In this document: positions 34,106 through 45,289 of the stretch, piece by piece | Numbering within the stretch: the stretch's first letter is position 1 | Layout: each line of letters begins with the position of its first letter | Source of the DNA: Gammaproteobacteria bacterium | Lineage (GTDB): Bacteria > Pseudomonadota > Gammaproteobacteria > Xanthomonadales > SZUA-36 | Length of the DNA stretch: 64,000 bases | Direction: 5' to 3' | Assembly (NCBI GenBank): GCA_030426265.1 | Contig: JAUHYP010000005.1 | Location: 62,001 to 126,000, forward strand | Notes under the pieces: generated by a model | Told to the model about the DNA's origin: nothing | The model's input: only the letters and a program-made list of their open reading frames with translations | Database searches by the model: none | Program-made: the position numbers and the translations under genes

Positions 34106-35464
34106 GTGAATCCGTCCGAGCCTGAACCTTCCGGCGACACCATCGCCGCCATCGCCACGCCTCCGGGCGCGGGTGGCGTTGCGGTGCTGCGGGTGTCCGG
34201 CCCGCACGCCCGGCACATCGGTGAGACCCTGGCGGGCGGGACACTGTCCCCGCGCTTCGCGCATTTCCGCAAGTTCCGGGACGAATCCGGCTCGGTCATC
34301 GATTCCGGCCTGGCGCTGTTGTTCATGGCGCCTGCGTCCTTCACCGGCGAGGACATCGTCGAGTTCCAGGGCCATGGCGGGCCGGTGGTTCAGCAGATGC
34401 TTCTCCGGCGCGTATTGACCCTGGGCGCCCGGCAGGCCCGGCCGGGGGAGTTCTCTGAACGCGCCTTTCTCAACGGCAAACTGGACCTCGCCCAGGCGGA
34501 GGCCATCGCCGATCTCATCGCATCAAACACCGAATCGGCGGCGCGCGCGGCGCAACGCTCGCTCGAAGGCGCGTTTTCCGACCGGGTGGAGGCGCTGCAG
34601 GAGCGGCTGACGGGCCTGCGGGTCTTCGTCGAGGCCGCCCTGGACTTTCCCGAAGAGGAGATCGACTTCATCGCCGAGAGCGATGTGCTCGAGCGCCTGG
34701 ATGCGCTGGCCGCGGACCTGCGCGCCCTGCTGTCCGAAGCCGAACGCGGGGCCGTGCTGCGCGACGGTATCACCGTGGCCATCGTCGGCCTGCCCAATGC
34801 GGGCAAGTCCAGCCTGCTCAACGCCCTGGCCGGACGCGACGCCGCCATCGTCACCGACGTGCCGGGCACCACCCGAGACGTGCTGCGCGAAACCCTGTCC
34901 CTGGACGGCCTGCCGGTTCACGTGGCGGACACTGCCGGCATCCGCGAGGCCGGCGACGTGGTCGAAGCCGAGGGCATTCGCAGGGCGCGCGCCGCGCTGG
35001 CCGCCGCGGACGTGGCCCTGCTGGTCATCGATCCCACCCAGCCCGAGGCGCCGCAACAGGCCTTGCGCGCGGAGATTCCCGACGGAGTCCGTTGCATCGA
35101 GGTGGTGAACAAGAGCGACCTCGCGGGCGAAACGCCCGCCATCGACGAAGCTGCCGGGCGCGTCACGCTGTCGGCGCGCGAACGGCAGGGCCTGGGCGGC
35201 CTGGTGACCCTGCTGCACTCAGCGGCCGGGCTGGGCGGTGGTGCCGAGGGGGCCTTTTCGGCCCGGACCCGACATCTCGAGGCGTTGCGCCGTACCCTCG
35301 AACATGTCGAGGCCGGCACCCGCCAACTGCGTGAATTCGGCTTGCCCGACACCCTGGCCGAGGACCTGCGCCTGGCGCAGCGCGCACTGGGGGAAATCAC
35401 GGGCGAGTTCCTGGCGGACGATCTGCTGGGGGTGATCTTCTCCTCGTTCTGCATCGGGAAGTAG
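34106..35464 (+). CDS. mnmE: tRNA uridine-5-carboxymethylaminomethyl(34) synthesis GTPase
   Basis: A 452-residue GTPase that modifies wobble uridine (cmnm5U/mnm5U) with MnmG. N-terminal folate-binding domain: DTIAAIATPPGAGGVAVLRVSG, FTGEDIVEFQGHGGP, RPGEFSERAFLNGKLDLAQAEA. G domain: GLPNAGKSSLLNAL (about 227-240), DVPGTTRDVL, DTAG, NKSD. The C-terminus ends FSSFCIGK with the catalytic cysteine four from the end. It begins with GTG at 34106, the only start consistent with the family N-terminus. mnmG, rsmG and parAB do not follow, unlike in many relatives. Confidence 0.97.
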   Translation: MNPSEPEPSGDTIAAIATPPGAGGVAVLRVSGPHARHIGETLAGGTLSPRFAHFRKFRDESGSVIDSGLALLFMAPASFTGEDIVEFQGHGGPVVQQMLLRRVLTLGARQARPGEFSERAFLNGKLDLAQAEAIADLIASNTESAARAAQRSLEGAFSDRVEALQERLTGLRVFVEAALDFPEEEIDFIAESDVLERLDALAADLRALLSEAERGAVLRDGITVAIVGLPNAGKSSLLNALAGRDAAIVTDVPGTTRDVLRETLSLDGLPVHVADTAGIREAGDVVEAEGIRRARAALAAADVALLVIDPTQPEAPQQALRAEIPDGVRCIEVVNKSDLAGETPAIDEAAGRVTLSARERQGLGGLVTLLHSAAGLGGGAEGAFSARTRHLEALRRTLEHVEAGTRQLREFGLPDTLAEDLRLAQRALGEITGEFLADDLLGVIFSSFCIGK

Positions 35465-35523
35465 TCGCCGCCCCCCAAAAGGTTCCCGAACCCGGTGCCC
35501 AGCTCCTGCCGAATCATAGTGGC

Positions 35524-35552
35524 TTGTAAATTAGAAAATACTAATTTATAGT
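35524..35552 (+). promoter_or_regulatory. Promoter of the sulfide:quinone oxidoreductase operon
   Basis: -35 TTGTAA (35524-35529), exactly 17 bases, then -10 TATAGT (35547-35552). The region is strikingly AT-rich in a GC-rich genome. Both elements are overlapped by the palindromes listed separately, so a bound repressor would block RNA polymerase. Confidence 0.7.
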
Positions 35553-35563
35553 TTTCTAAACTA
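35527..35563. promoter_or_regulatory. Two adjacent AT-rich palindromes, probable ArsR-type operators
   Basis: First palindrome: TAAATTAG (35527-35534) and CTAATTTA (35541-35548), perfect 8-bp arms, six-base spacer. Second: TAGTTT (35549-35554) and AAACTA (35558-35563), perfect 6-bp arms, three-base spacer. They touch each other and cover the -35 end through the -10 of the promoter. The ArsR-family gene at the end of the same operon (41946-42311) is the obvious candidate ligand; this is inference. Confidence 0.65.
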
Positions 35564-35572
35564 TTCAGGCGT

Positions 35573-35614
35573 CCGTCCATGACCGGCAGCTTGTGCCGGC
35601 CGCCCTTCGGACGG
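35573..35614 (+). promoter_or_regulatory. Two-stem 5' leader structure before the SQR ribosome binding site
   Basis: Outer stem CCGTCC (35573-35578) with GGACGG (35609-35614) encloses an inner hairpin CCGGCA (35583-35588) / TGCCGG (35594-35599). All pairs are perfect. The strong ribosome binding site AAAGGAGG begins just downstream, so the fold would leave it exposed. May stabilise the mRNA; function not known. Confidence 0.45.
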
Positions 35615-35629
35615 CAAAGGAGGCTCGTT

Positions 35630-36907
35630 ATGAAACGAATGGTGGTGATCGGTGGTGGAATCGGTGGCATTTCCGCGGTCTATGAACTTCGGGACCGGCT
35701 GGGCAAGAATCACGAAATCCTCCTGGTATCGGACAGCGACCAGTTCGAGTTCACGCCTTCCAACCCCTGGGTCGCGGTGAAATGGCGCAAGCCCGAAGCG
35801 ATCACCATTGACCTGGCGCCGGTGATGAAGAAGCACGGCGTCGCATTCAAGCATGACGCCGTCTCCCGGGTCGTGCCCGAGCAGAACCGTGTCGAACTGG
35901 CGTCCGGGGAAACGCTGGACTACGACTACCTGGTGATCGCAACCGGTCCCCGCCTGGCTTTCAATGAAATCGAGGGGCTGGGCCCGGAGGGCCATACCGT
36001 CTCCGTGTGCAAGACCGCCCACGCCCTCGAATCGTCGAAGGACTTCGAGGCCTTGTGCGCCGATCCGGGCCCGGTGGTCATCGGCGCCGCCCAGGGGGCC
36101 TCCTGTTACGGGCCCGCCTACGAATACGCCTTCATCCTGGAAACGGAGCTGCGCAAACGGAAAATCCGGGACCGGGTGCCCATGACCTTCGTGACGCCGG
36201 AGCCCTACATCGGCCACCTGGGGCTCGATGGGGTGGGGGACACCAAGGGCCTGCTGGAATCGGAACTGCGGAACCGGCACGTGAAGTGGCTGACCAATAC
36301 ACGCATCGACCGGGTCGAGGCCGGCCGCATGCATGTCACCACCGTGAACGAGGACGGCAGCGACAAGGCCAGCCAGGCGCTCGAGTTCAAGCACAGCATG
36401 ATCCTGCCCGCCTTCACCGGCGTGGATGCGGTCATGGGCATCGACCAGCTGGTCAATCCACGGGGATTCGTCATCGTGGACGAATTCCAGCGCAATCCCA
36501 CCTGGCCCAACGTTTACGGCGTGGGCGTCTGCGTCGCCATTCCACCGGTCGGGCCGACGCCCCTGCCGGTCGGCGTGCCCAAGACCGGTTACATGATCGA
36601 ATCGATGGTGACGGCCACCGTGGAGAACATCGCCCTGGCCGTCGAGGGCAGGGAACCGGCGCACCGGGCCACCTGGAACGCTTTCTGTCTGGCCGACTTC
36701 GGTGATCGCGGCGTGGCCTTCATCGCCCTGCCGCAAATCCCCCCGCGAAACACCAACTGGGCGTCCTCCGGCAAGTGGGTGCACCTGGCCAAGGTCGCGT
36801 TCGAAAAGTACTACCTGCGCAAGGTGAGGAAAGGCACCACGGAGCCCTATTACGAAAAGGTCGCGCTTAAACTCATGGGCGCCGCCAAATTGAGGGCCGA
36901 GGCATGA
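35630..36907 (+). CDS. sqr: Sulfide:quinone oxidoreductase
   Basis: A 425-residue FAD flavoprotein that oxidises sulfide to polysulfide or sulfur and reduces quinone at the membrane. The dinucleotide motif is VVIGGGIGGISAVYEL (5-20). The three catalytic cysteines are C127 (SVCKTAH), C159 (GASCYGPAYEY) and C353 (NAFCLADFGD), nearly the same positions as Cys128, 160 and 356 in Acidithiobacillus ferrooxidans SQR. The C-terminus is amphipathic (WVHLAKVAFEKYYLRKVRKG), suited to membrane binding. Start chosen at 35630 with AAAGGAGG before it, not the upstream ATG inside the leader. First gene of a six-gene operon; stop overlaps the RND gene as ATGA. Confidence 0.93.
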   Translation: MKRMVVIGGGIGGISAVYELRDRLGKNHEILLVSDSDQFEFTPSNPWVAVKWRKPEAITIDLAPVMKKHGVAFKHDAVSRVVPEQNRVELASGETLDYDYLVIATGPRLAFNEIEGLGPEGHTVSVCKTAHALESSKDFEALCADPGPVVIGAAQGASCYGPAYEYAFILETELRKRKIRDRVPMTFVTPEPYIGHLGLDGVGDTKGLLESELRNRHVKWLTNTRIDRVEAGRMHVTTVNEDGSDKASQALEFKHSMILPAFTGVDAVMGIDQLVNPRGFVIVDEFQRNPTWPNVYGVGVCVAIPPVGPTPLPVGVPKTGYMIESMVTATVENIALAVEGREPAHRATWNAFCLADFGDRGVAFIALPQIPPRNTNWASSGKWVHLAKVAFEKYYLRKVRKGTTEPYYEKVALKLMGAAKLRAEA

Positions 36908-39486
36908 AAGACGCCATCCTGGCCCTGTCCACGGGTCGGCCTCGCCTGGTCTACCTGCTGACCTTCCTGCTGGTCGCGGTCACCGGCGCCCTGATGCCGC
37001 GAATCCACATCGACACGGATCCCGAGAACATGCTGCCGGCCGGGCAGTCGGACCGGGTGTTTCACAACCAGGTGGAGGAATGGTTCGGGCTGCACGACGC
37101 CATCGTGGTCGGTGTCGTCAATGACGGACCCGAGGGTGTCTATCGTCCCGAGACCCTCGCCGCGCTGCACCGGGTGTCGGAAGCCATCCTCGCGCTGGAC
37201 GGCGTGATCCCGCCCGACCTCATGTCCCTGGCGGCGGCGGACAACATCACCCAGGAGCGCAGCGAGGACGGGGCGGCCGTGCTGCGCTTCGAATGGATGA
37301 TGAAGGAAGCCCCGTCGACGCAAGCCCAGGCGGACCACATTCGCGCGGCGGTTGCGCGCCTGCCCCTGCTCCAGGACACGCTGGTGGCTGGAGACGGAAA
37401 GGCGGCAGCCATCTACGTTCCCATCGAGCGAAAGGACCTGAGCTACGCACTCTCGCAGAACATCGAGGCCCTGGTGTCGGTGGAGTCCGGCGCCGGGGAA
37501 TGGCACATCACCGGCCTGCCGGTGGCGGAGGACACCTTCGGCCACGAGATGTTCGTGCAGATGGGCATCTCCGCGCCGCTGGCGGGACTGATGATCTTCA
37601 TTCTCATGTGGGTGTTCTTCCGCAACCTGCGGTTGATCATCTCGCCGATGATCGTCGCCATGGCGACCGTGATCGCCACCATGGGCCTGCTGATCGGAAT
37701 GGGATTCACGGTGCACATCATGAGCTCCATGATTCCCATCTTCCTGATGCCCATCGCGGTGGTGGATTCGATCCACATCCTGTCGGAGTTCGCCGACAAC
37801 TACCGCAAGGGCGATGACGCGGGAGCGGTCATGAAGAAGGTGGTCGGCCACCTGTTCAAGCCCATGCTGTTTACGTCCCTGACCTCGGCGGCGGGGTTCG
37901 CGTCCCTGCTGCTGACGCCCATTCCGCCGGTCAAGGTGTTCGGCGCCTTCGTGGCGTTCGGCATTCTGCTCGCCTTCCTGCTGACGGTCGTGTTCATTCC
38001 CGCCTGGGTGGTGCGCAGCAGCGAGAAATCCCTGGCCAGCCTCGACCGCCTGCGCGAGGGCGCCGATGCCCAGTCGCCCCTGGCCCGGGTGCTGCGGAAG
38101 GTCGGGCGGTTCGCCTATGGCGGCCGCGGCCTGATCGCAATGGCGGCAATCGTCGTCGTGGCGGTGAGCGTGGCGGGCCTGCTGCGCATCCAGATCAACG
38201 ACAACCCTGTGCGCTGGTTCAAGGACACGCACCGGATCCGCGTCGCCGACGCCGTGCTCAACGAGCACTTTGCCGGAACCTACGACGCGTTTTTTGTCCT
38301 CAGCCACGAGGACCCGAACGCCTGGGGCCGTTTCGAAGCGTCCGCCCGTACGGCGTTCGAGGGCCAGGAGCTTCCGGCATCCGTCGCAGAACTGCTGGCG
38401 GAACCGCCGGCGCCGGGGGAATTCGATGCCCGGATGGGTACGCTCATCGCGGAGGCCGACGACCTGTCCTTCAGCACCGATGACCCGGACCAGGCGGGGG
38501 CCCTGGAATGGCTGATGGCCGAAGCGGAGACGGCGCAACAGGCGGGGCGGTACTTCCAGCGTCCCGCCGCGCTCGCCACCATCGAGTCCCTGCAACAGGC
38601 CCTTGCCGATACCGGCCTGGTGGGAAAGACCAATGCCCTGCCGGACGTGGTGAAAGTGGTGAACCGGGAGCTGCGCAGCGGCGAAGCGGGCGACTACATG
38701 ATTCCCGACAGCGTGCCGGGCGTGGCCCAGACCCTGCTCCAGTACCAGTCCTCGCACCGCCCGCAGGACCTGTGGCACATGGTGACGCCGGACTTCACGC
38801 GCACCGCGGTGTGGCTGCAACTCACCTCGGGTGACAACCAGGACATGACCCGGGTCATCGAGGCCGTGGACGCGTGGCTGGCCGACAATCCGCTGCCGGA
38901 AGGCGTGACGGGCCGCTGGGCCGGCAAGACCTATATCAACGTGGTCTGGCAGGGTGAAATGGTGGCGGGCATGCTCGACAGCCTGGTGGGCGCCTTTGTC
39001 GTGGTCTTCGTCATGATGGTGCTGCTGTTCCGTTCCATCCCCTGGGGGGTGGTGGCCATGTTGCCGCTGACCTTCACCATCCTCGGGGTGTACGGATTCA
39101 TCGGCTGGATCGGCAAGTACTACGATATGCCCATCGCCGTGCTCTCTTCCCTCACCCTGGGCCTGTCCGTGGATTTCGCGATTCACTTCATCCAGCGCAG
39201 CCGTGAACTCCACCGTTCGCTCGGCAGCTTCGAGGCCATGGCCGCCGCGATGTTCGAGGAACCGGCGAGGGCGATCACGCGCAACGCCATCGTCATCGCC
39301 CTTGGGTTCACGCCCCTGTTCCTGGCGCCGCTCATGCCCTACGTGACGGTCGGCAGCTTCATGGCCTCCATCATGGTGCTGTCCGGAGCGGCGACACTCC
39401 TGTTGTTGCCGGCCGTGATCGCGCTGGGACGGCGTCTGCTCTTCAAAACCGATGCTCAGCAAGGAGTCGAAGCCCATGTTGCCTAG
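36904..39486 (+). CDS. RND superfamily exporter, HAE3/MMPL type
   Basis: An 860-residue transporter with two similar halves: one N-terminal membrane helix (about 12-32), a periplasmic loop, five helices (~residues 215-370), then a second helix near 412-432, a longer loop and five more helices (~690-850). Landmarks: MFVQMGISAPLAGLMIFILMW, IPIFLMPIAVVDSIHILSEF, LTSAAGFASLLLTPIPPVKVFG and, in the second half, LGLSVDFAIHFIQRSRE and EPARAITRNAIVIALGFTPLF. HAE3 and MmpL relatives move lipids, hopanoids or hydrophobic compounds across the envelope. Overlaps SQR by four bases and the LolA-like gene by eleven. Substrate unknown. Confidence 0.9.
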   Translation: MKDAILALSTGRPRLVYLLTFLLVAVTGALMPRIHIDTDPENMLPAGQSDRVFHNQVEEWFGLHDAIVVGVVNDGPEGVYRPETLAALHRVSEAILALDGVIPPDLMSLAAADNITQERSEDGAAVLRFEWMMKEAPSTQAQADHIRAAVARLPLLQDTLVAGDGKAAAIYVPIERKDLSYALSQNIEALVSVESGAGEWHITGLPVAEDTFGHEMFVQMGISAPLAGLMIFILMWVFFRNLRLIISPMIVAMATVIATMGLLIGMGFTVHIMSSMIPIFLMPIAVVDSIHILSEFADNYRKGDDAGAVMKKVVGHLFKPMLFTSLTSAAGFASLLLTPIPPVKVFGAFVAFGILLAFLLTVVFIPAWVVRSSEKSLASLDRLREGADAQSPLARVLRKVGRFAYGGRGLIAMAAIVVVAVSVAGLLRIQINDNPVRWFKDTHRIRVADAVLNEHFAGTYDAFFVLSHEDPNAWGRFEASARTAFEGQELPASVAELLAEPPAPGEFDARMGTLIAEADDLSFSTDDPDQAGALEWLMAEAETAQQAGRYFQRPAALATIESLQQALADTGLVGKTNALPDVVKVVNRELRSGEAGDYMIPDSVPGVAQTLLQYQSSHRPQDLWHMVTPDFTRTAVWLQLTSGDNQDMTRVIEAVDAWLADNPLPEGVTGRWAGKTYINVVWQGEMVAGMLDSLVGAFVVVFVMMVLLFRSIPWGVVAMLPLTFTILGVYGFIGWIGKYYDMPIAVLSSLTLGLSVDFAIHFIQRSRELHRSLGSFEAMAAAMFEEPARAITRNAIVIALGFTPLFLAPLMPYVTVGSFMASIMVLSGAATLLLLPAVIALGRRLLFKTDAQQGVEAHVA

Positions 39487-40294
39487 AAACCCCTTCGTTC
39501 TCATCGCCCTTCTGGGCGCGCTACTGGCCACCCAGACAGCGGGCGCCCAGGACGAGGCGCTCGATGCGGACGCCATCGTCGCGCGGGCCAACCTGGCCTC
39601 GTATTACGCGGGGGAGGACGGCCGCAGCGAGGCGCGCATGCGCATCATCGACGGCCAGGGCCGGGAGCAACGCCGCCAGTTCACGGTCCTGCGCCGCGAC
39701 GTGGCCGAGGGCGGCGACCAGCAGTTCCTGGTGGTCTTCAGCCAGCCCTCGGACGTGCGTGGCACCAGCTTCCTGGTGCACAAGCACACCACCCGGGACG
39801 ATGACCGGTGGCTCTACCTGCCCGGCCTGGACCTGGTGAAGCGCATCGCCGCCGGAGACAAACGAACCAGCTTTGTGGGATCCCATTACTACTACGAGGA
39901 CGTGTCCGGCCGGAACCCGAACGAGGACACGCACACCCTGGGCGAAGGCGATGCCAGGCACTTCGAGCTGGTCCACCGGCCGAAGAATCCTTCAACCGTG
40001 GAATTCGCCGAGTACACCACCTGGATCGACCGGGAAACCTTCCTGCCGATGCGCATCGAGTACCGGAACGACCGGGGTGAGCCGATCCGCCGCGTGGAAG
40101 TGAGCAAGGTGGAAACCATCGAAGGCCATCCGACGGTCACCGCCAGCCGCATCACGGATGTTCAGAGTGGCGGCTACACGGACCTCCAGTTCCGCTACAT
40201 CGCCTACGATCTGGGCATGCCCGGGGACCTGTTCGGCGAGCGCAGCCTGCGCAACCCCGCCGGGGAGTGGCTGGAGCGGCCGGCGGATCGCTGA
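39476..40294 (+). CDS. Outer membrane lipoprotein-sorting (LolA-like) periplasmic protein
   Basis: A 272-residue exported protein. Start at the ATG at 39476, with AAGGAG nine bases upstream; an ATG eight codons earlier overlaps the RND gene more deeply. Signal peptide ends at QTAGAQ (~25). The mature domain has the LolA-like pattern: MRIIDGQGREQRRQFTVLRRD, QQFLVVFSQPSDVRGTSFLVH, WLYLPGLDLVKRIAAGDKRTSFVGSHYYYED (split here for length) and YTTWIDRETFLPMRIEY. Such half-barrel proteins bind acyl chains or lipoproteins and are often encoded beside HAE3 exporters, where they may hand cargo across the periplasm. Immediately followed by the predicted outer-membrane protein. Confidence 0.85.
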   Translation: MLPRNPFVLIALLGALLATQTAGAQDEALDADAIVARANLASYYAGEDGRSEARMRIIDGQGREQRRQFTVLRRDVAEGGDQQFLVVFSQPSDVRGTSFLVHKHTTRDDDRWLYLPGLDLVKRIAAGDKRTSFVGSHYYYEDVSGRNPNEDTHTLGEGDARHFELVHRPKNPSTVEFAEYTTWIDRETFLPMRIEYRNDRGEPIRRVEVSKVETIEGHPTVTASRITDVQSGGYTDLQFRYIAYDLGMPGDLFGERSLRNPAGEWLERPADR

Positions 40295-41707
40295 GTGCCC
40301 GGAATGCCACGTTTCTCCCTCATCACCGGTGTGTTGCTGGCCCTGCTGGCCCTTCCGGCGTTCGCCCAGGATCCGCCGGCCGGAACCGAAGCGCGCCAGC
40401 AGACCGCGTCCGGAGACGAAGGCTGGGGCGACGAGGACCGGGCGGAGAACGCCCCGGGCGACGACGGCCAGGACGATGACTGGAATGACGACTGGAACGA
40501 TGACTGGGGTGGCGACGACTGGGAGGAGGAAGCAGCCTCACCCTGGACGGGCTTCGTGGAGCTCGGATACGGCCAGCGCTTCAGCCGCGACCCGGCCGTG
40601 GGCCGCTACGCCACGCTGGGTGAGGCACGCTGGCGCATCGAGCGCACCTGGAACCCCGGCAGCAGCCGCGTGGATGTGCGCGCCGATCTCCTGGCGGACG
40701 GCGTGCTGGAAGATTTCGACGCGGAACTGCGCGAACTGGCCTGGGCGCGGTCCTTCGGCCGTACCGATCTGCGCATCGGCCGCCAGGTGCTCACCTGGGG
40801 GACGGGCGACCTGCTGTTCCTCAACGACCTGTTTCCAAAGGGCTGGGTGTCCTTCTTCATCGGTCGCGACGATGAATACCTCAAGCAGCCGGCGAACGCG
40901 ATCCGGGCCACCACCTACACCGACCTGGTGAACCTGGACGTCGTGGCCATGCCCCTGTTCGAACCCGACGAGTACCTCACCGGAGAACGTCTGTCCTTCT
41001 TTTCACCCCAGGCGGGCATGATCGTGGCGCCGAATCCGCCGCTGGACGGTGACGAGCCTTCGGCGAGCCTTTCAAACACCGAGTGGGCCCTGCGGGCGTT
41101 TCGCAACGTGAACGGCAACGAGCTGGCCGTGTACGGATTCAGCGGCTTCTACCACCAGCCCTCGCCCGCCGGCCCCGGTGGCAGCCTGGTGTTCCCGGAA
41201 CTCGAGGCCCTGGGCGCGAGTTGGCGACGGGCCCTGGGGCCGGGGCTGTTCAATGCCGAATTCGTTCGCTACTGGTCCGCGGACGACCGCTCGGGCACCG
41301 ACCCGCTGGTTCCCAATGACCAGGACCGCTACCTGCTCGGGTACGAGTGGGAGGCGGCAACCAGCTTCACCGTGGGATTCCAGGCGTACCTGGAACGGAC
41401 CCGCGATCACGACGAGTTGCTGGCCAACTCGCCCTGGCCGCAGTTCGAAGTGGCCGAGAACCGCTGGTGGCTGACCAACCGGCTGACCTGGCGCACCCGC
41501 CAGGAACAACTGACCTGGTCGCTGTTCACTTTCTACTCGCCGACGGACCATGACCACTACCTGCGGCCACAGGTGAGCTGGCGTCTCAGTGACGAGTGGA
41601 CCCTGGCGGCCGGCGCCAACCTGTTCGGCGGCGACGAGGACCACACCTTTTTCAACCAGTTCCAGGACGACAGCAACGCCTGGTTGCGCGTCCGGTTCAA
41701 CTACTGA
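40295..41707 (+). CDS. Predicted outer-membrane beta-barrel protein of unknown function
   Basis: A 470-residue exported protein starting with GTG directly after the previous stop; the ATG at 40304 (MPRFSLITGVLLALLALPAFAQ) is an equal alternative. After the signal comes a very acidic stretch with DDW repeats (about residues 45-80), then alternating amphipathic strands rich in aromatic residues (FVELGYGQRFSRD, ELAWARSFGRTDLRIGRQVLTWGTGDLLFLND). The last residues, NAWLRVRFNY, end in an aromatic residue as expected of a barrel. The GRQVLTWG block resembles porin-like proteins that accompany HAE3/LolA-like genes. It may be the outer-membrane exit for this exporter; no named function can be assigned. 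Confidence 0.65.
   Translation: MPGMPRFSLITGVLLALLALPAFAQDPPAGTEARQQTASGDEGWGDEDRAENAPGDDGQDDDWNDDWNDDWGGDDWEEEAASPWTGFVELGYGQRFSRDPAVGRYATLGEARWRIERTWNPGSSRVDVRADLLADGVLEDFDAELRELAWARSFGRTDLRIGRQVLTWGTGDLLFLNDLFPKGWVSFFIGRDDEYLKQPANAIRATTYTDLVNLDVVAMPLFEPDEYLTGERLSFFSPQAGMIVAPNPPLDGDEPSASLSNTEWALRAFRNVNGNELAVYGFSGFYHQPSPAGPGGSLVFPELEALGASWRRALGPGLFNAEFVRYWSADDRSGTDPLVPNDQDRYLLGYEWEAATSFTVGFQAYLERTRDHDELLANSPWPQFEVAENRWWLTNRLTWRTRQEQLTWSLFTFYSPTDHDHYLRPQVSWRLSDEWTLAAGANLFGGDEDHTFFNQFQDDSNAWLRVRFNY
40475..40522 (+). repeat. 12-bp tandem repeat coding for DDWN/DDWG in the outer-membrane protein
   Basis: Units GATGACTGGAAT, GACGACTGGAAC, GATGACTGGGGT and a fourth shifted GGCGACGACTGG follow each other. 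They encode an acidic tryptophan-containing segment just after the signal peptide, probably on the periplasmic side. Confidence 0.7.
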
Positions 41708-41736
41708 CCCTTCGACGGGTCGAGGAGCGACAGACA

Positions 41737-41949
41737 ATGACGGTAGAACGCGCAACGATGGCCTTCGCGGGCTTCATGGTCCTTCTTTCCCTGGCCCTGA
41801 CCTGGTTCGTTCACCCCTACTGGGTGTGGCTGACCGTGTTCGTGGGCGCCAACCTGCTACAAAGCGCCTTCACCGGCTTCTGCCCCGCTTCCATGATCCT
41901 CGCGAAGCTGGGCCTGAAGACCGAACGCCAGTGCGCCCTGAGCACATGA
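41737..41949 (+). CDS. DUF2892 family small inner-membrane protein (YgaP-like)
   Basis: A 70-residue protein with two hydrophobic segments (MAFAGFMVLLSLALTWF and VWLTVFVGANLLQSAFTGF) and the signature CPASMILAKLGLK just before the C-terminus. DUF2892 is the membrane part of the rhodanese YgaP, and free copies occur in BigR/sulfide-detoxification operons. Start at the ATG at 41737 with GAGGAG upstream. Its stop overlaps the start of the ArsR regulator as ATGA. May bind or pass persulfide sulfur via its cysteines; this is inference. Confidence 0.85.
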   Translation: MTVERATMAFAGFMVLLSLALTWFVHPYWVWLTVFVGANLLQSAFTGFCPASMILAKLGLKTERQCALST

Positions 41950-42311
41950 GCGCCCCTGGCACATCCAACGTGGCGGCGCTGACGCAATCCATGAGCCTGG
42001 ACGACATGCGGCGCAATGCGGCGGATGCCGTGTCCCTGCTCAAGTCCCTGGCCAACGAGAGCCGGCTGCTCATCATGTGCGTGCTGGCCGAGGGCGAGCT
42101 TTCCGTGGGCGACCTGAACCAGCGGATCGAACTCAGCCAGTCCGCCCTCTCCCAGCACCTGGCCGTGCTCAGAAGCCAGGGCCTGGTGACGACGCGCCGC
42201 GAAGGCCAGGTGATCCATTACGCGCTGGCCGATTCCAAGGCCATTCCCCTGATCGAGCGGTTGCACGACATCTATTGCGGCCCACAGCCGGAATCCGGGA
42301 AGCGCTGTTGA
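41946..42311 (+). CDS. ArsR-family regulator of BigR/SqrR persulfide-sensor type
   Basis: A 121-residue winged-helix repressor. [35 protein letters not shown] (about 63-94, given by ends). Two cysteines, C45 ([11 protein letters not shown]) and C111 (HDIYCG), match the pair in BigR and SqrR that forms a di- or tetrasulfide link when persulfide rises and so releases DNA. There are no As(III)/metal ligand patterns (ELCVCDL). Last gene of the SQR operon, so it probably represses its own operon through the palindromes at 35527-35563. A third cysteine is the C-terminal residue. Confidence 0.9.
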
Positions 42312-42381
42312 ACGACGGGTCGGGGGTCAATCGTACGGCCGCCCGATTCGAATTGAACCAAAGAAACAGGAGGTCGTTGAA

Positions 42382-42849
42382 ATGAGCACCATCGATATCG
42401 GAATTTCCAGTACCGACCGCGGCCTGGTGGCCGAAGGCCTGAAGCGATTGCTGGCGGATTCCTACACGTTGTACCTGCAGACCCACAATTTCCATTGGAA
42501 CGTGACCGGTCCGCAGTTTCGCGAACTTCACCTGATGTTCGAGGAGCACTACACGGAACTGGCCACGGCGGTGGACGACATCGCGGAACGCATCCGCACT
42601 CTGGGCGAGATCGCACCGGGCACCTACAAGGCGTTCGCGCAACTGAGCTCGATCGAGGAAGTCGAGGGCGTACCCGAAGCGGGGCAGATGGTCGCGCTGC
42701 TCAAGGCCGGCCACGAACAGGTGGTGAAAACCTGTCGCCTGGCCCTGTCGCCCGCCCAGGAGGCCGGTGACGAGTCATCGGCGGCACTGATTTCCGATCG
42801 CATGCGGATTCACGAGAAAACGGCCTGGATGCTGCGGGCGATGGCCTGA
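42382..42849 (+). CDS. dps: Dps family ferritin-like DNA-protection protein
   Basis: A 155-residue member of the Dps group that stores iron and protects DNA during oxidative stress, forming a 12-subunit shell. Family core: [40 protein letters not shown]; these carry the intersubunit ferroxidase ligands (H38, H50, D65/D66, E69). The C-terminal [17 protein letters not shown] is also typical. AGGAGG lies before the ATG. It follows the ArsR gene by 70 bases in the same orientation, so it could be part of the same transcript. Confidence 0.93.
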
Positions 42850-42878
42850 GGATTCGAAGACAGAGGAGGAAGGCAGAC

Positions 42879-42944
42879 ATGTGGCACAAGCACCGGGGTT
42901 TGAATGAGATGCGTGACATGAAGGATTCGATATGTCGGAAATAG
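42879..42944 (+). CDS. Possible 21-residue leader peptide upstream of cydA
   Basis: A short open frame (MWHKHRGLNEMRDMKDSICRK) with a good GAGGAGGA site eight bases before its ATG. It overlaps the first codons of cydA in another frame, so its translation could couple to cydA. It is hydrophilic and does not resemble CydX. No homology is known to me; it may be chance. Confidence 0.3.
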   Translation: MWHKHRGLNEMRDMKDSICRK

Positions 42945-44293
42945 ACCCGGTCCTGTTGGCGCGAATCCAGTTCGCGGCCAACATCAGTTTTCACATTCTG
43001 TTCCCGGCCATCTCCATGGGCCTGGCCTGGCTGCTCCTGTTCTTTCGCTGGCGCTACACGCGCACGGGGGACCAGGCCTGGGAGTACGCGTACACCTGCT
43101 GGGTGAAGATCTTCGCCCTGACCTTCGCCATGGGGGTGGTATCGGGCATCACCATGAGCTTCCAGTTTGGCACGAACTGGCCGGGCTTCATGGAGAAGGC
43201 GGGTAACATCGCCGGGCCCCTGCTGGGTTACGAGGTTCTGAGCGCCTTTTTCCTGGAGGCCTCCTTTCTCGGAATCATGTTGTTCGGCAAGCACCGCGTG
43301 TCCAATCGGATGCACCTGGTCAGCACGTTTTTGGTGGCGTTTGGAACCACCCTTTCAGCGTTCTGGATCCTCAGCCTCAACTCCTGGATGCAGACCCCGG
43401 CCGGCTATTTCATCGAGGACGGCGTCTTCATGGTGGACAGCTGGTGGGCGGTGATCTTCAACCCCTCGTTTCCCTATCGCTTCTTCCACATGATGGCGGC
43501 CTCGGTGCTGACCAGCGCGTTCCTCGTCGCCGGCGTGAGCGCCTGGCGCGCGCTCCGTGGCGTCGATGGCCCGGCTACCTGGAAGGTGATGCGGACCGGC
43601 GTCGTGCTGGCCGCGGTCATGGCGCCATTGCAGATCTTCATTGGCGACCTTCATGGCCTGAACACCCTGGAACACCAGCCGGAGAAGGTGGCCGCCATGG
43701 AAGCGATCTGGGAGACGGAGCAGGGAGCGCCCTTCACCCTGGTGGCCTGGCCTGACGAGGACATCCGGGACAACCGTTTCTCGATCGAAGTCCCGTACGC
43801 GGCAAGCCTGGTGTTGACCCACGAACTGCAGGGCGAAGTGATGGGCCTGAACGACTTCGAAGGCAATCATCCACCGGTGGCCATCGTTTTCTGGTCGTTT
43901 CGAGTCATGTTGCTGGTGGGCATGCTGATGCTGCTGGTCAGCGGGTGGGCCGCGTGGGCGATGCGCGGTGGAAGAACGGCGAGCCGCCCCCTGCTGCGGG
44001 CCCTGTCCTGGATGACCTTTTCCGGCTGGGTGGCGGTGCTGGCGGGCTGGTACGTCACGGAGATTGGCCGTCAGCCCTGGATCGTCAGCGGATTGCTGAC
44101 GGTTCGCGATGTCGCTGCCGATCACAGCAGCGCCACCCTGTTTGGAACGCTGTTCGGGTACGTGTTGTTGTACGTGTTTCTGCTGGTGTCCTACATCGGC
44201 GCCGTTCGTTACCTGTCAACGAAGCCGGCCGCTTCGCTGGTCCTGACGCGTGGCGAGCAAGTCGGTCGCGGTTTGCAGCCACAGGAGGGATAG
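42932..44293 (+). CDS. cydA: Cytochrome bd-type quinol oxidase subunit I, cyanide-insensitive (CIO) type
   Basis: A 453-residue membrane subunit carrying hemes b and d. Nine or so helices. Landmarks: ARIQFAANISFHILFPAISMGLAW (heme ligand His in FHILFP), FALTFAMGVVSGITMSFQFGTNWPGF, the second His in FPYRFFHMMAAS, GDLHGLNTLEHQPEKVAAMEA and GRQPWIVSGLLTVRDV near the C-terminus. The short Q-loop and the GRQPW end place it with the CIO/bd-II-like group. Such oxidases resist sulfide and cyanide, which fits the neighbouring SQR operon. RBS AAGGA six bases before the ATG. Confidence 0.95.
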   Translation: MSEIDPVLLARIQFAANISFHILFPAISMGLAWLLLFFRWRYTRTGDQAWEYAYTCWVKIFALTFAMGVVSGITMSFQFGTNWPGFMEKAGNIAGPLLGYEVLSAFFLEASFLGIMLFGKHRVSNRMHLVSTFLVAFGTTLSAFWILSLNSWMQTPAGYFIEDGVFMVDSWWAVIFNPSFPYRFFHMMAASVLTSAFLVAGVSAWRALRGVDGPATWKVMRTGVVLAAVMAPLQIFIGDLHGLNTLEHQPEKVAAMEAIWETEQGAPFTLVAWPDEDIRDNRFSIEVPYAASLVLTHELQGEVMGLNDFEGNHPPVAIVFWSFRVMLLVGMLMLLVSGWAAWAMRGGRTASRPLLRALSWMTFSGWVAVLAGWYVTEIGRQPWIVSGLLTVRDVAADHSSATLFGTLFGYVLLYVFLLVSYIGAVRYLSTKPAASLVLTRGEQVGRGLQPQEG

Positions 44294-44296
44294 GCC

Positions 44297-45289
44297 ATGG
44301 AATACTGGTTGCCACTGATCTACCTCGTCGCCATGGGGATCGCGTTGCTGGTCTACGTGATCCTCGACGGCTACGACCTGGGCGTGGGCATGTTGCTGCC
44401 GTTGGCCGATGAACGCGAGAAAGACATCATGGTCGCCTCGATCGGTCCCTTCTGGGATGCCAACGAGACCTGGATCGTGCTGGGCGTGGGCATCCTCCTG
44501 ATCGCCTTTCCCGTGGCGCACGGCATCGTGCTCACCAGTCTCTACCTGCCGGTTACCATCATGCTGATGGGACTGATCCTGCGGGGTGTGGCCTTCGACC
44601 TCAGGGTCAAGGCGGGCGATCATCGCAAGGCCCTGTGGAACCGTGCGTTCTTCCTCGGCTCGCTGATCGCATCGGTTGCCCAGGGGTGGATGCTCGGGTC
44701 CTATGTCACCGGATTGCAGTCGACGCCGACGGGTCTGATGTTTGCCGCCCTGATCGCCTTGACCCTCCCCGCCCTGTACCTCCTGCTCGGTTGCGGATGG
44801 TTGCTGATGAAAACCGAGGGGGCGCTGCAACGCAAGACCGTTGCCTGGGCCCGCCGGGCGATCCTGCCCATGGGCCTCGGTCTGCTGCTGGTTTCTGTGG
44901 CGACGCCGCTGGTGAGCGCGGGCATTGCGGAGAAATGGTTCAGCTGGCCCAACATGCTGTTGCTGGCGCCCATTCCGCTGGTCTCCCTCGCGGCCTTTGT
45001 CGGGTCGCTGGTCCTGCTCAGGCGCGAGGACTGGCTCCAGGGCAGTCGCAGCTGGTGGCTGTACGGTCTCACAGTGCTGGTCTGCTGCATGGCCAGCCTC
45101 GGGCTGGGCTACAGCCTGTTTCCCAACATCGTCGTCGATCGCCTGACGATCTGGGATGCGGCCGCGTCGGTGGATTCCTTGCTGTTCACGCTGGTCGGGG
45201 TGGTGCTGACGCTGCCGGTGATCATCTTCTACACGATCTACGTCTACCGAATCTTTCACGGCAAGGCGACGGAATTGTCCTACGAGTGA
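44297..45289 (+). CDS. cydB: Cytochrome bd-type quinol oxidase subunit II
   Basis: A 330-residue membrane subunit with about eight helices that pairs with CydA. Landmarks: YVILDGYDLGVGMLLPL, IGPFWDANETWIVLGVGILLIAFP, LRGVAFDLR and the C-terminal VIIFYTIYVYRIFHGKA. It begins three bases after the cydA stop. No small CydX/CydS-type subunit gene is visible in the 146 bases after it. Confidence 0.96.
   Translation: MEYWLPLIYLVAMGIALLVYVILDGYDLGVGMLLPLADEREKDIMVASIGPFWDANETWIVLGVGILLIAFPVAHGIVLTSLYLPVTIMLMGLILRGVAFDLRVKAGDHRKALWNRAFFLGSLIASVAQGWMLGSYVTGLQSTPTGLMFAALIALTLPALYLLLGCGWLLMKTEGALQRKTVAWARRAILPMGLGLLLVSVATPLVSAGIAEKWFSWPNMLLLAPIPLVSLAAFVGSLVLLRREDWLQGSRSWWLYGLTVLVCCMASLGLGYSLFPNIVVDRLTIWDAAASVDSLLFTLVGVVLTLPVIIFYTIYVYRIFHGKATELSYE

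Follow-up and report, generated by a model that had tools for sequence, protein, structure and literature searches.

Operons under persulfide-sensing ArsR repressors, such as those of BigR in Xylella and Agrobacterium, SqrR in Rhodobacter and HlyU in Vibrio, show a two-cysteine ArsR, an AT-rich palindrome in the promoter and genes for sulfide or persulfide handling in or beside the operon. The same three features are found in a six-gene operon at positions 35630-42311, + strand, of a 64,000-nt window, which is the whole stretch of DNA analysed (contig JAUHYP010000005.1 of assembly GCA_030426265.1) and to which all feature positions refer. It encodes a sulfide:quinone oxidoreductase (SQR), an MMPL transporter, a LolA-like carrier, an outer-membrane beta-barrel, a YgaP-like transmembrane protein (YgaP-TM) and an ArsR repressor. 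The operon differs from those of BigR, SqrR and HlyU in its target, a pump-carrier-barrel set translationally linked to SQR, and in that no Blh was found in its own genome at E<=1e-20.

Sulfane-sulfur-responsive ArsR regulators have among their gene neighbours sqr, pdo and rhd together with genes that encode RND efflux pumps, TauE-type exporters and others (PMC12423496), and genes for persulfide-sensing ArsRs are found alongside those for sulfurtransferases and for transporters of inorganic sulfur (PMC10509353). The account of Li et al. 2025 has in common with the window operon an RND-type pump beside a two-cysteine ArsR, with SQR among the neighbours, but its section 2.1 contains no carrier, barrel or coupling (PMC12423496). 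In Thalassolituus oleivorans, an MMPL-LolA protein and a porin are raised on long-chain alkane (PMC6304351). The common point with this protein, TOL_3187 (MMPL plus a LolA-like domain), is an MMPL, a LolA-like domain and a porin responding together; it differs in its long-chain alkane context, with no sulfide gene in the passages that describe it, and the likeness noted is one of description (PMC6304351). The pump fold and likely proton relay residues are shared with the hopanoid transporters of the HpnN/HAE3 type, HpnN belonging to HAE-3 (PMC8277102), and with the MmpL lipid and siderophore exporters; the window pump lies far under both the HAE3 and HpnN cut-offs, and also differs in its PF17131 partner carrier and its sulfide context. 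The initial annotation knew of no description of such an operon. This holds for the whole set of SQR, pump, carrier and barrel in the open-access literature, subscription papers and supplements lying outside the search, but RND pumps beside such ArsRs had already been listed, as far as the passages of that source go (PMC12423496).

Recurrence of the operon and its sulfur-linked neighbourhood

Gene neighbourhoods strongly support a link between sulfide handling and the exporter, as initially proposed, through conserved adjacency, stop/start overlap of the SQR and pump genes, a candidate operator, a Cys-pair ArsR, a paralog control (0/20) and held-out loci (9/9). Relatives of the pump were found in 13/274 genomes of the class (E<=1e-60). 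Together with the window and the best 80 of 530 confirmed pump relatives, these 13 give 94 loci. The best-80 loci include Woeseiaceae, Alteromonadaceae, Oceanospirillaceae, Colwelliaceae, Kangiella, Marinobacter, Ferrimonas, Idiomarina, Bowmanella and one deltaproteobacterial metagenome-assembled genome; they were picked by pump likeness and are related, hence their counts are non-independent. A LolA-like gene is present in 91 of the 94 loci, a barrel gene in 88, ArsR in 57, YgaP-TM in 56 and SQR in 26. Neighbours were scored within 7 kb at E<=1e-5, by tblastn with one to three representatives for each label (the TauE-like query from L081, the second and third rhodanese queries and the second dioxygenase query got their labels from clustering or visual inspection), and 73 loci have flanks of 5 kb or more on either side. 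All 73 contain the LolA-like and barrel genes, 48 contain YgaP-TM, 43 ArsR, 18 SQR, 17 rhodanese, nine a dioxygenase-like gene, seven CydA, six a TauE-like gene and five a FisR-like gene, FisR being a label that we presume for a PAS/sigma-54 activator. On this gene content, pump, carrier and barrel travel together across related loci. At least one of five sulfur-linked families (ArsR, YgaP-TM, SQR, rhodanese and persulfide-dioxygenase-like) is present in 63/73 full-flank loci, and a sulfide or persulfide enzyme (SQR, rhodanese or dioxygenase-like) in 31/73. The adjacency of SQR with RND, PF17131 and barrel genes, for which the initial annotation had proposed a genome search, thus recurs across loci, and a curiosity unique to this strain is excluded by the 94 loci together with the held-out loci.

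The paralog control contains 20 PF17131 regions from the same genomes, drawn from non-module PF17131 loci above 100 bits, with one locus of G131, two of G215 and weaker matches left out; two of the regions (L124 and L132) are flanked on one side by under 5 kb. Within 9 kb, all five families are absent from each of the 20; ten regions contain an MMPL match, and one matches the FisR-like activator in a generic way. Fisher's test for 63/73 against 0/20 gives 3e-13, a value that ignores the dependence among loci. The ten control MMPLs branch off outside all 94 module MMPLs in the tree, a fully supported placement, but several control branches are very long. Chance adjacency is ruled out by this control. 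A held-out draw of 398 genomes of the phylum contains 11 with the pump, nine of them new. The five-family context is present in all nine held-out loci and the palindrome described below in four; three of the nine, on short contigs, are outside the class of the window.

The SQR gene (35630-36907, + strand, 425 aa, Pfam Pyr_redox_2) has its closest solved relatives in the 3sz0 group, which we take to be the Acidithiobacillus ferrooxidans sulfide-quinone reductase, with a full-length match (E 6.9e-143, residues 3-423 of 424). The next solved match is 3hyv (2.4e-109), and the mitochondrial type is far weaker (~1e-13). Presumably Cys126, Cys158 and Cys352 are the redox-active, catalytic cysteines; among the SQRs of the loci, Cys158 and Cys352 are kept in 24/24 and Cys126 in 22/24. 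Judged by sequence, the encoded enzyme is a bona fide SQR. SQR is directly upstream of the pump gene, on the same strand and within 70 nt, in 17/94 loci. In the 16 tightest pairs (all but L036) a stop/start overlap is found in 14, of which 11 are ATGA and three TGATG, and L047 and L054 show both genes without overlap. In nine further loci SQR is 160-4254 nt away, in other arrangements. The window shows the ATGA form, with the pump start inside the SQR stop, which bears out the translational coupling initially annotated; the word "fused" in the title of that annotation does not fit, as SQR is a separate gene coupled to the pump gene by the overlap. SQR presence (26/81 scorable loci) requires about 10 changes on the tree, so that the gene was gained or lost repeatedly. 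An SQR of the same type is present in 76/274 genomes of the class and in 8/13 pump genomes, against 3.6 expected (P 0.009, kinship ignored).

Two loci show particular arrangements. In Bowmanella dokdonensis (L081, 7681-20978) one stretch contains the dioxygenase-like, TauE-like, rhodanese, MMPL, LolA-like and barrel genes together with YgaP-TM, ArsR, FisR-like, SQR and CydA/CydB genes. L040 (1-6393), binned in Simkaniaceae (Chlamydiota), contains a pump near-identical to that of the Woeseiaceae locus L039, and is probably a mis-binned contig, not a transfer.

The two-cysteine repressor and the candidate operator

The last gene of the operon (41946-42311, + strand, 121 aa, Pfam HTH_5) encodes an ArsR-family repressor with Cys45 and Cys111. 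Its best solved relatives are HlyU structures, followed by 3pqj (biofilm growth-associated repressor BigR) and by the 6o8l group, presumably SqrR. The cysteine pair, in helices 2 and 5, is aligned with that of HlyU, and among the ArsRs of the loci Cys45 is kept in 54/57 and Cys111 in 56/57. The protein scores 104.7 bits against a cut-off of 155 for the NCBIfam BigR equivalog NF040642, and for this reason it is not classed as BigR. Of the initial label "BigR/SqrR-like", what stands is a Cys-pair ArsR related to HlyU, BigR and SqrR, but with HlyU as its best solved relative. The pair probably places the repressor in the persulfide-sensing HlyU/BigR/SqrR group, with a predicted persulfide-driven release from DNA.

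Ahead of SQR, a sigma-70-like promoter match, TTGTAA-17-TATAGT (35524-35552, + strand, 9/12 matches), is the sole one in the scanned interval 35380-42450, where 0.8 are expected by chance, and its start is the left end of the region initially annotated. Within it is a 22-bp palindromic candidate operator, TAAATTAGAAAATACTAATTTA (35527-35548), with the core TTAG-N6-CTAA at 35531-35544. The operator count covered the 300 bp before SQR or MMPL in 91/94 loci, three having no usable upstream stretch. The exact core is present in 45/91 loci, against a mean of 0.5 and a maximum of two in shuffled sequence, and with one mismatch permitted it is present in 58, against 13.4. A spacer of six is found in those 45 loci, and no other spacer between 0 and 14 occurs in more than three. 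The exact core is present in 37/56 loci with ArsR within 7 kb and in 8/35 of the remaining loci. Elsewhere in the loci it is rare, with 23 occurrences in 1.75 Mb, and the control loci show three in 326 kb. In the genome of the window, the exact core is found at one place only, the SQR promoter, and a reversed control pattern at 13. A wider regulon of the palindrome in this genome was considered and rejected, as a second exact site is absent, mismatched sites not having been sought.

The published HlyU site is TAATTCAGACTAAATTA (PMC4330345); it is like the operon palindrome in character and not identical in sequence, as printed there. No printed BigR operator consensus was present in the literature passages searched, which gave the HlyU site alone. 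Directly after the candidate operator, a second short palindrome, AGTTTTCTAAACT (35551-35563), was seen by eye and is possibly a second repressor half-site.

Export components and the YgaP-like protein

The initial annotation placed six genes in tight order, and all are present in that order on the + strand. The pump gene (36904-39486, + strand, 860 aa) passes the MMPL family PF03176 (89.6 bits, cut-off 20.5). Its best NCBIfam match is HAE3 (TIGR00921), below cut-off (150.9 against 351.9 bits), and HpnN (TIGR03480) is also below (71.8 against 751.85 bits); the name "HAE3/MMPL RND exporter" given initially is therefore kept for MMPL and reduced to HAE3-like. The structure model shows a mean predicted local distance difference test (pLDDT) of 88.7 and fold matches to MmpL4/5, MmpL3, NPC1L1 and HpnN. 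D288/H291 and D757/H761 are conserved in 35-36 of 36 sequences (alignment A4, with L086 left out of 36 listed). Acid residues at such pump positions form the RND proton relay, and these are likely to be the relay residues. Within the operon the pump is accompanied by a LolA-like carrier and a barrel of porin type, where a classic tripartite RND pump would have an adaptor and a TolC-type channel. The pumps of L033 (8289-10829) and L034 (5977-8589, - strand) show about 270 extra N-terminal residues, which by eye resemble two cyclic-nucleotide-binding domains; neither locus shows sulfur-linked neighbours, and the L034 contig is short.

The carrier gene (39476-40294, + strand, 272 aa) overlaps the pump gene by 11 nt and passes PF17131 LolA_like (168.4 bits, cut-off 30), its solved relatives being 9tp6, 4z48 and 3bk5. 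The barrel gene (40295-41707, + strand, 470 aa from a GTG) directly abuts the stop of the carrier gene, and an alternative ATG is found at 40307. Its match to DUF1302 (PF06980) is below cut-off (19.3 against 23.2 bits), but the model (mean pLDDT 84.2) predicts a barrel confidently, in agreement with the outer-membrane barrel initially predicted. Z scores of about 22 to OpdQ, MOMP, OccAB4 and AlgE are tied within 1 (Foldseek also used), and a solved-structure sequence search with the barrel alignment gave no hits. In the model the fold class is clearly Occ/AlgE-type, with likeness to MOMP; such likeness gives no function. A LolA-barrel gene fusion suspected in L074 was ruled out by an in-frame stop between the two.

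Between signal peptide and barrel, residues 15-73 counted from the ATG at 40307 (40349-40525, + strand) form a putative periplasmic tail, predicted to be disordered (pLDDT <50), with acidic-Trp repeats. At least two acidic-Trp motifs are present in the tail region of 28/29 aligned barrels (alignment A2, 29 rows including the window, with 11 of 39 listed barrels left out, L070 and L094 among them; alignment A3 contains 22/31 intended rows). Among divergent barrels, L035 and L036 do not show the tail and L030 and L032 show different short repeats instead. The tail is possibly a docking motif for the carrier.

After a gap of 29 nt from the barrel gene, a gene (41737-41949, + strand, 70 aa, Pfam YgaP-like_TM) encodes the YgaP-like transmembrane protein of the PF11127/DUF2892 type, and it overlaps the ArsR gene by ATGA. 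Its Cys51, numbered from window position 41731, is kept in 55/55 homologs of the loci. A tandem protein with two YgaP-TM domains takes the place of the single-domain gene directly behind the barrel in L095 (16083-16469) and in Oceanospirillaceae loci like it; its gene is on the opposite strand, 3-6 kb from the pump.

Cargo of the exporter and flanking genes

The operon probably encodes a recurrent, persulfide-inducible trans-envelope export module. Gene order, coupling, operator, sensor cysteines, fold classes and recurrent sulfur context are supported by the sequences compared, and we infer the inducer, co-transcription, transport direction, cargo and physical contacts. We favour, tentatively and at somewhat short of even chances, a self-regulated sulfide-response operon whose cargo would be a hydrophobic product formed when sulfide is oxidised, namely S8, a polysulfane or a persulfidated molecule. 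As long as reactive sulfur is absent, the palindrome inside the SQR promoter would be occupied by the ArsR repressor; on entry of sulfide, SQR or other chemistry would yield persulfide or polysulfide, the two ArsR cysteines would form a polysulfide bridge and the repressor would leave the DNA. The enzyme, pump, carrier, barrel, YgaP-like protein and repressor would then be produced together. The proton-driven MMPL pump would load the hydrophobic product from the inner membrane or the periplasm, the LolA-like protein would ferry it through the periplasm and the barrel would release it, its acidic-Trp tail perhaps recruiting the carrier. The narrower claim of a first dedicated trans-envelope exporter of zero-valent sulfur, in which SQR-made sulfane sulfur would be moved as S8 or polysulfane by the MMPL, LolA-like and barrel proteins, with the tail recruiting the carrier, is doubtful.

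To our knowledge, how SQR-bearing sulfide oxidisers clear poorly soluble zero-valent sulfur from membranes is not settled, and the operon may be a dedicated route moving a sulfide-oxidation product out of the cell. For the MMPL clade with LolA-like partners, otherwise an orphan, the set would supply a signal and a physiological context, and it names genes that could be deleted in genera open to culture (Marinobacter, Alteromonas, Bowmanella, Kangiella and Ferrimonas). Export is attractive because dioxygenase, SoxB and DsrA routes for SQR sulfur were not found in the genome of the window, where an NF040641-type dioxygenase is absent at E<=1e-20. One of the Blh/SoxB/DsrA-type searches covered all 13 pump-bearing genomes and two covered 7/13. 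Several observations weigh against export of such a product. One weak 25-bit match to NF040641, the only dioxygenase model used, leaves room for a dioxygenase of another family, and the genome shows seven rhodanese-domain matches. Other carriers of the module have a dioxygenase-like gene, SoxB or DsrA, so that a missing oxidation route is not general. SQR is within 7 kb in only 26/94 loci, and the exact palindrome is missing from 46/91 upstream regions. None of the five families is present in 10/73 full-flank loci (L045, L070, L087, L088, L106, L116, L027, L028, L029 and L033), of which L045, L088, L106 and L116 keep the palindrome and L087 keeps a FisR-like gene. Most MMPL-fold exporters of known cargo move lipids or siderophores, and Occ-type porins import, so that the barrel fold gives no transport direction.

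The strongest alternative, which we hold to be less likely than export of a sulfide-oxidation product, is a sulfide-responsive remodelling of the envelope, in which pump, carrier and barrel would move a lipid or other envelope component upon sensing of reactive sulfur, lowering damage or permeability, and SQR would share the operon since both are needed under sulfide. MmpL3 (mycolate transport), HpnN (hopanoid transport) and the sterol protein NPC1L1 are among the fold relatives of the pump, LolA-like proteins typically carry acylated cargo, and 68/94 loci show no SQR nearby, as expected if the cargo is not an SQR product. The alkane response of the MMPL-LolA protein and porin of Thalassolituus, as described, points the same way (PMC6304351). 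However, the overlap of SQR and pump genes in 14/16 pairs and the several SQR arrangements (about 10 tree changes) speak for a closer relation to the product of SQR, and the conserved neighbours examined, of which not all clusters were annotated, included no recognised gene for lipid synthesis. Improbable, in turn, is a general toxicant efflux under a sulfide-type sensor, in which the pump would rid the cell of various hydrophobic or electrophilic compounds and the regulator would do no more than signal redox stress. RND efflux pumps are listed beside such regulators with no cargo defined in the passages concerned (PMC12423496), and a reference title links E. coli YgaV, of the same regulator group, to antibiotic tolerance. 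Against this, a sulfide or persulfide enzyme within 7 kb characterises 31/73 full-flank loci and 0/20 paralog loci. Uptake of sulfur or lipid by barrel and carrier, or an exporter co-regulated without acting on the SQR product, is very unlikely: Occ-type porins, among the best barrel fold matches, are uptake channels and 10/73 loci have no sulfur-linked neighbour, but an inner-membrane MMPL pump normally exports and the sulfur context is specific to the module clade in the paralog control and the tree.

The operon is flanked by mnmE upstream and, downstream (42382-45289), by a ferritin/Dps-type gene followed by cydA and cydB, which encode a cytochrome bd oxidase. Such a quinol oxidase next to SQR would be in keeping with sulfide oxidation.

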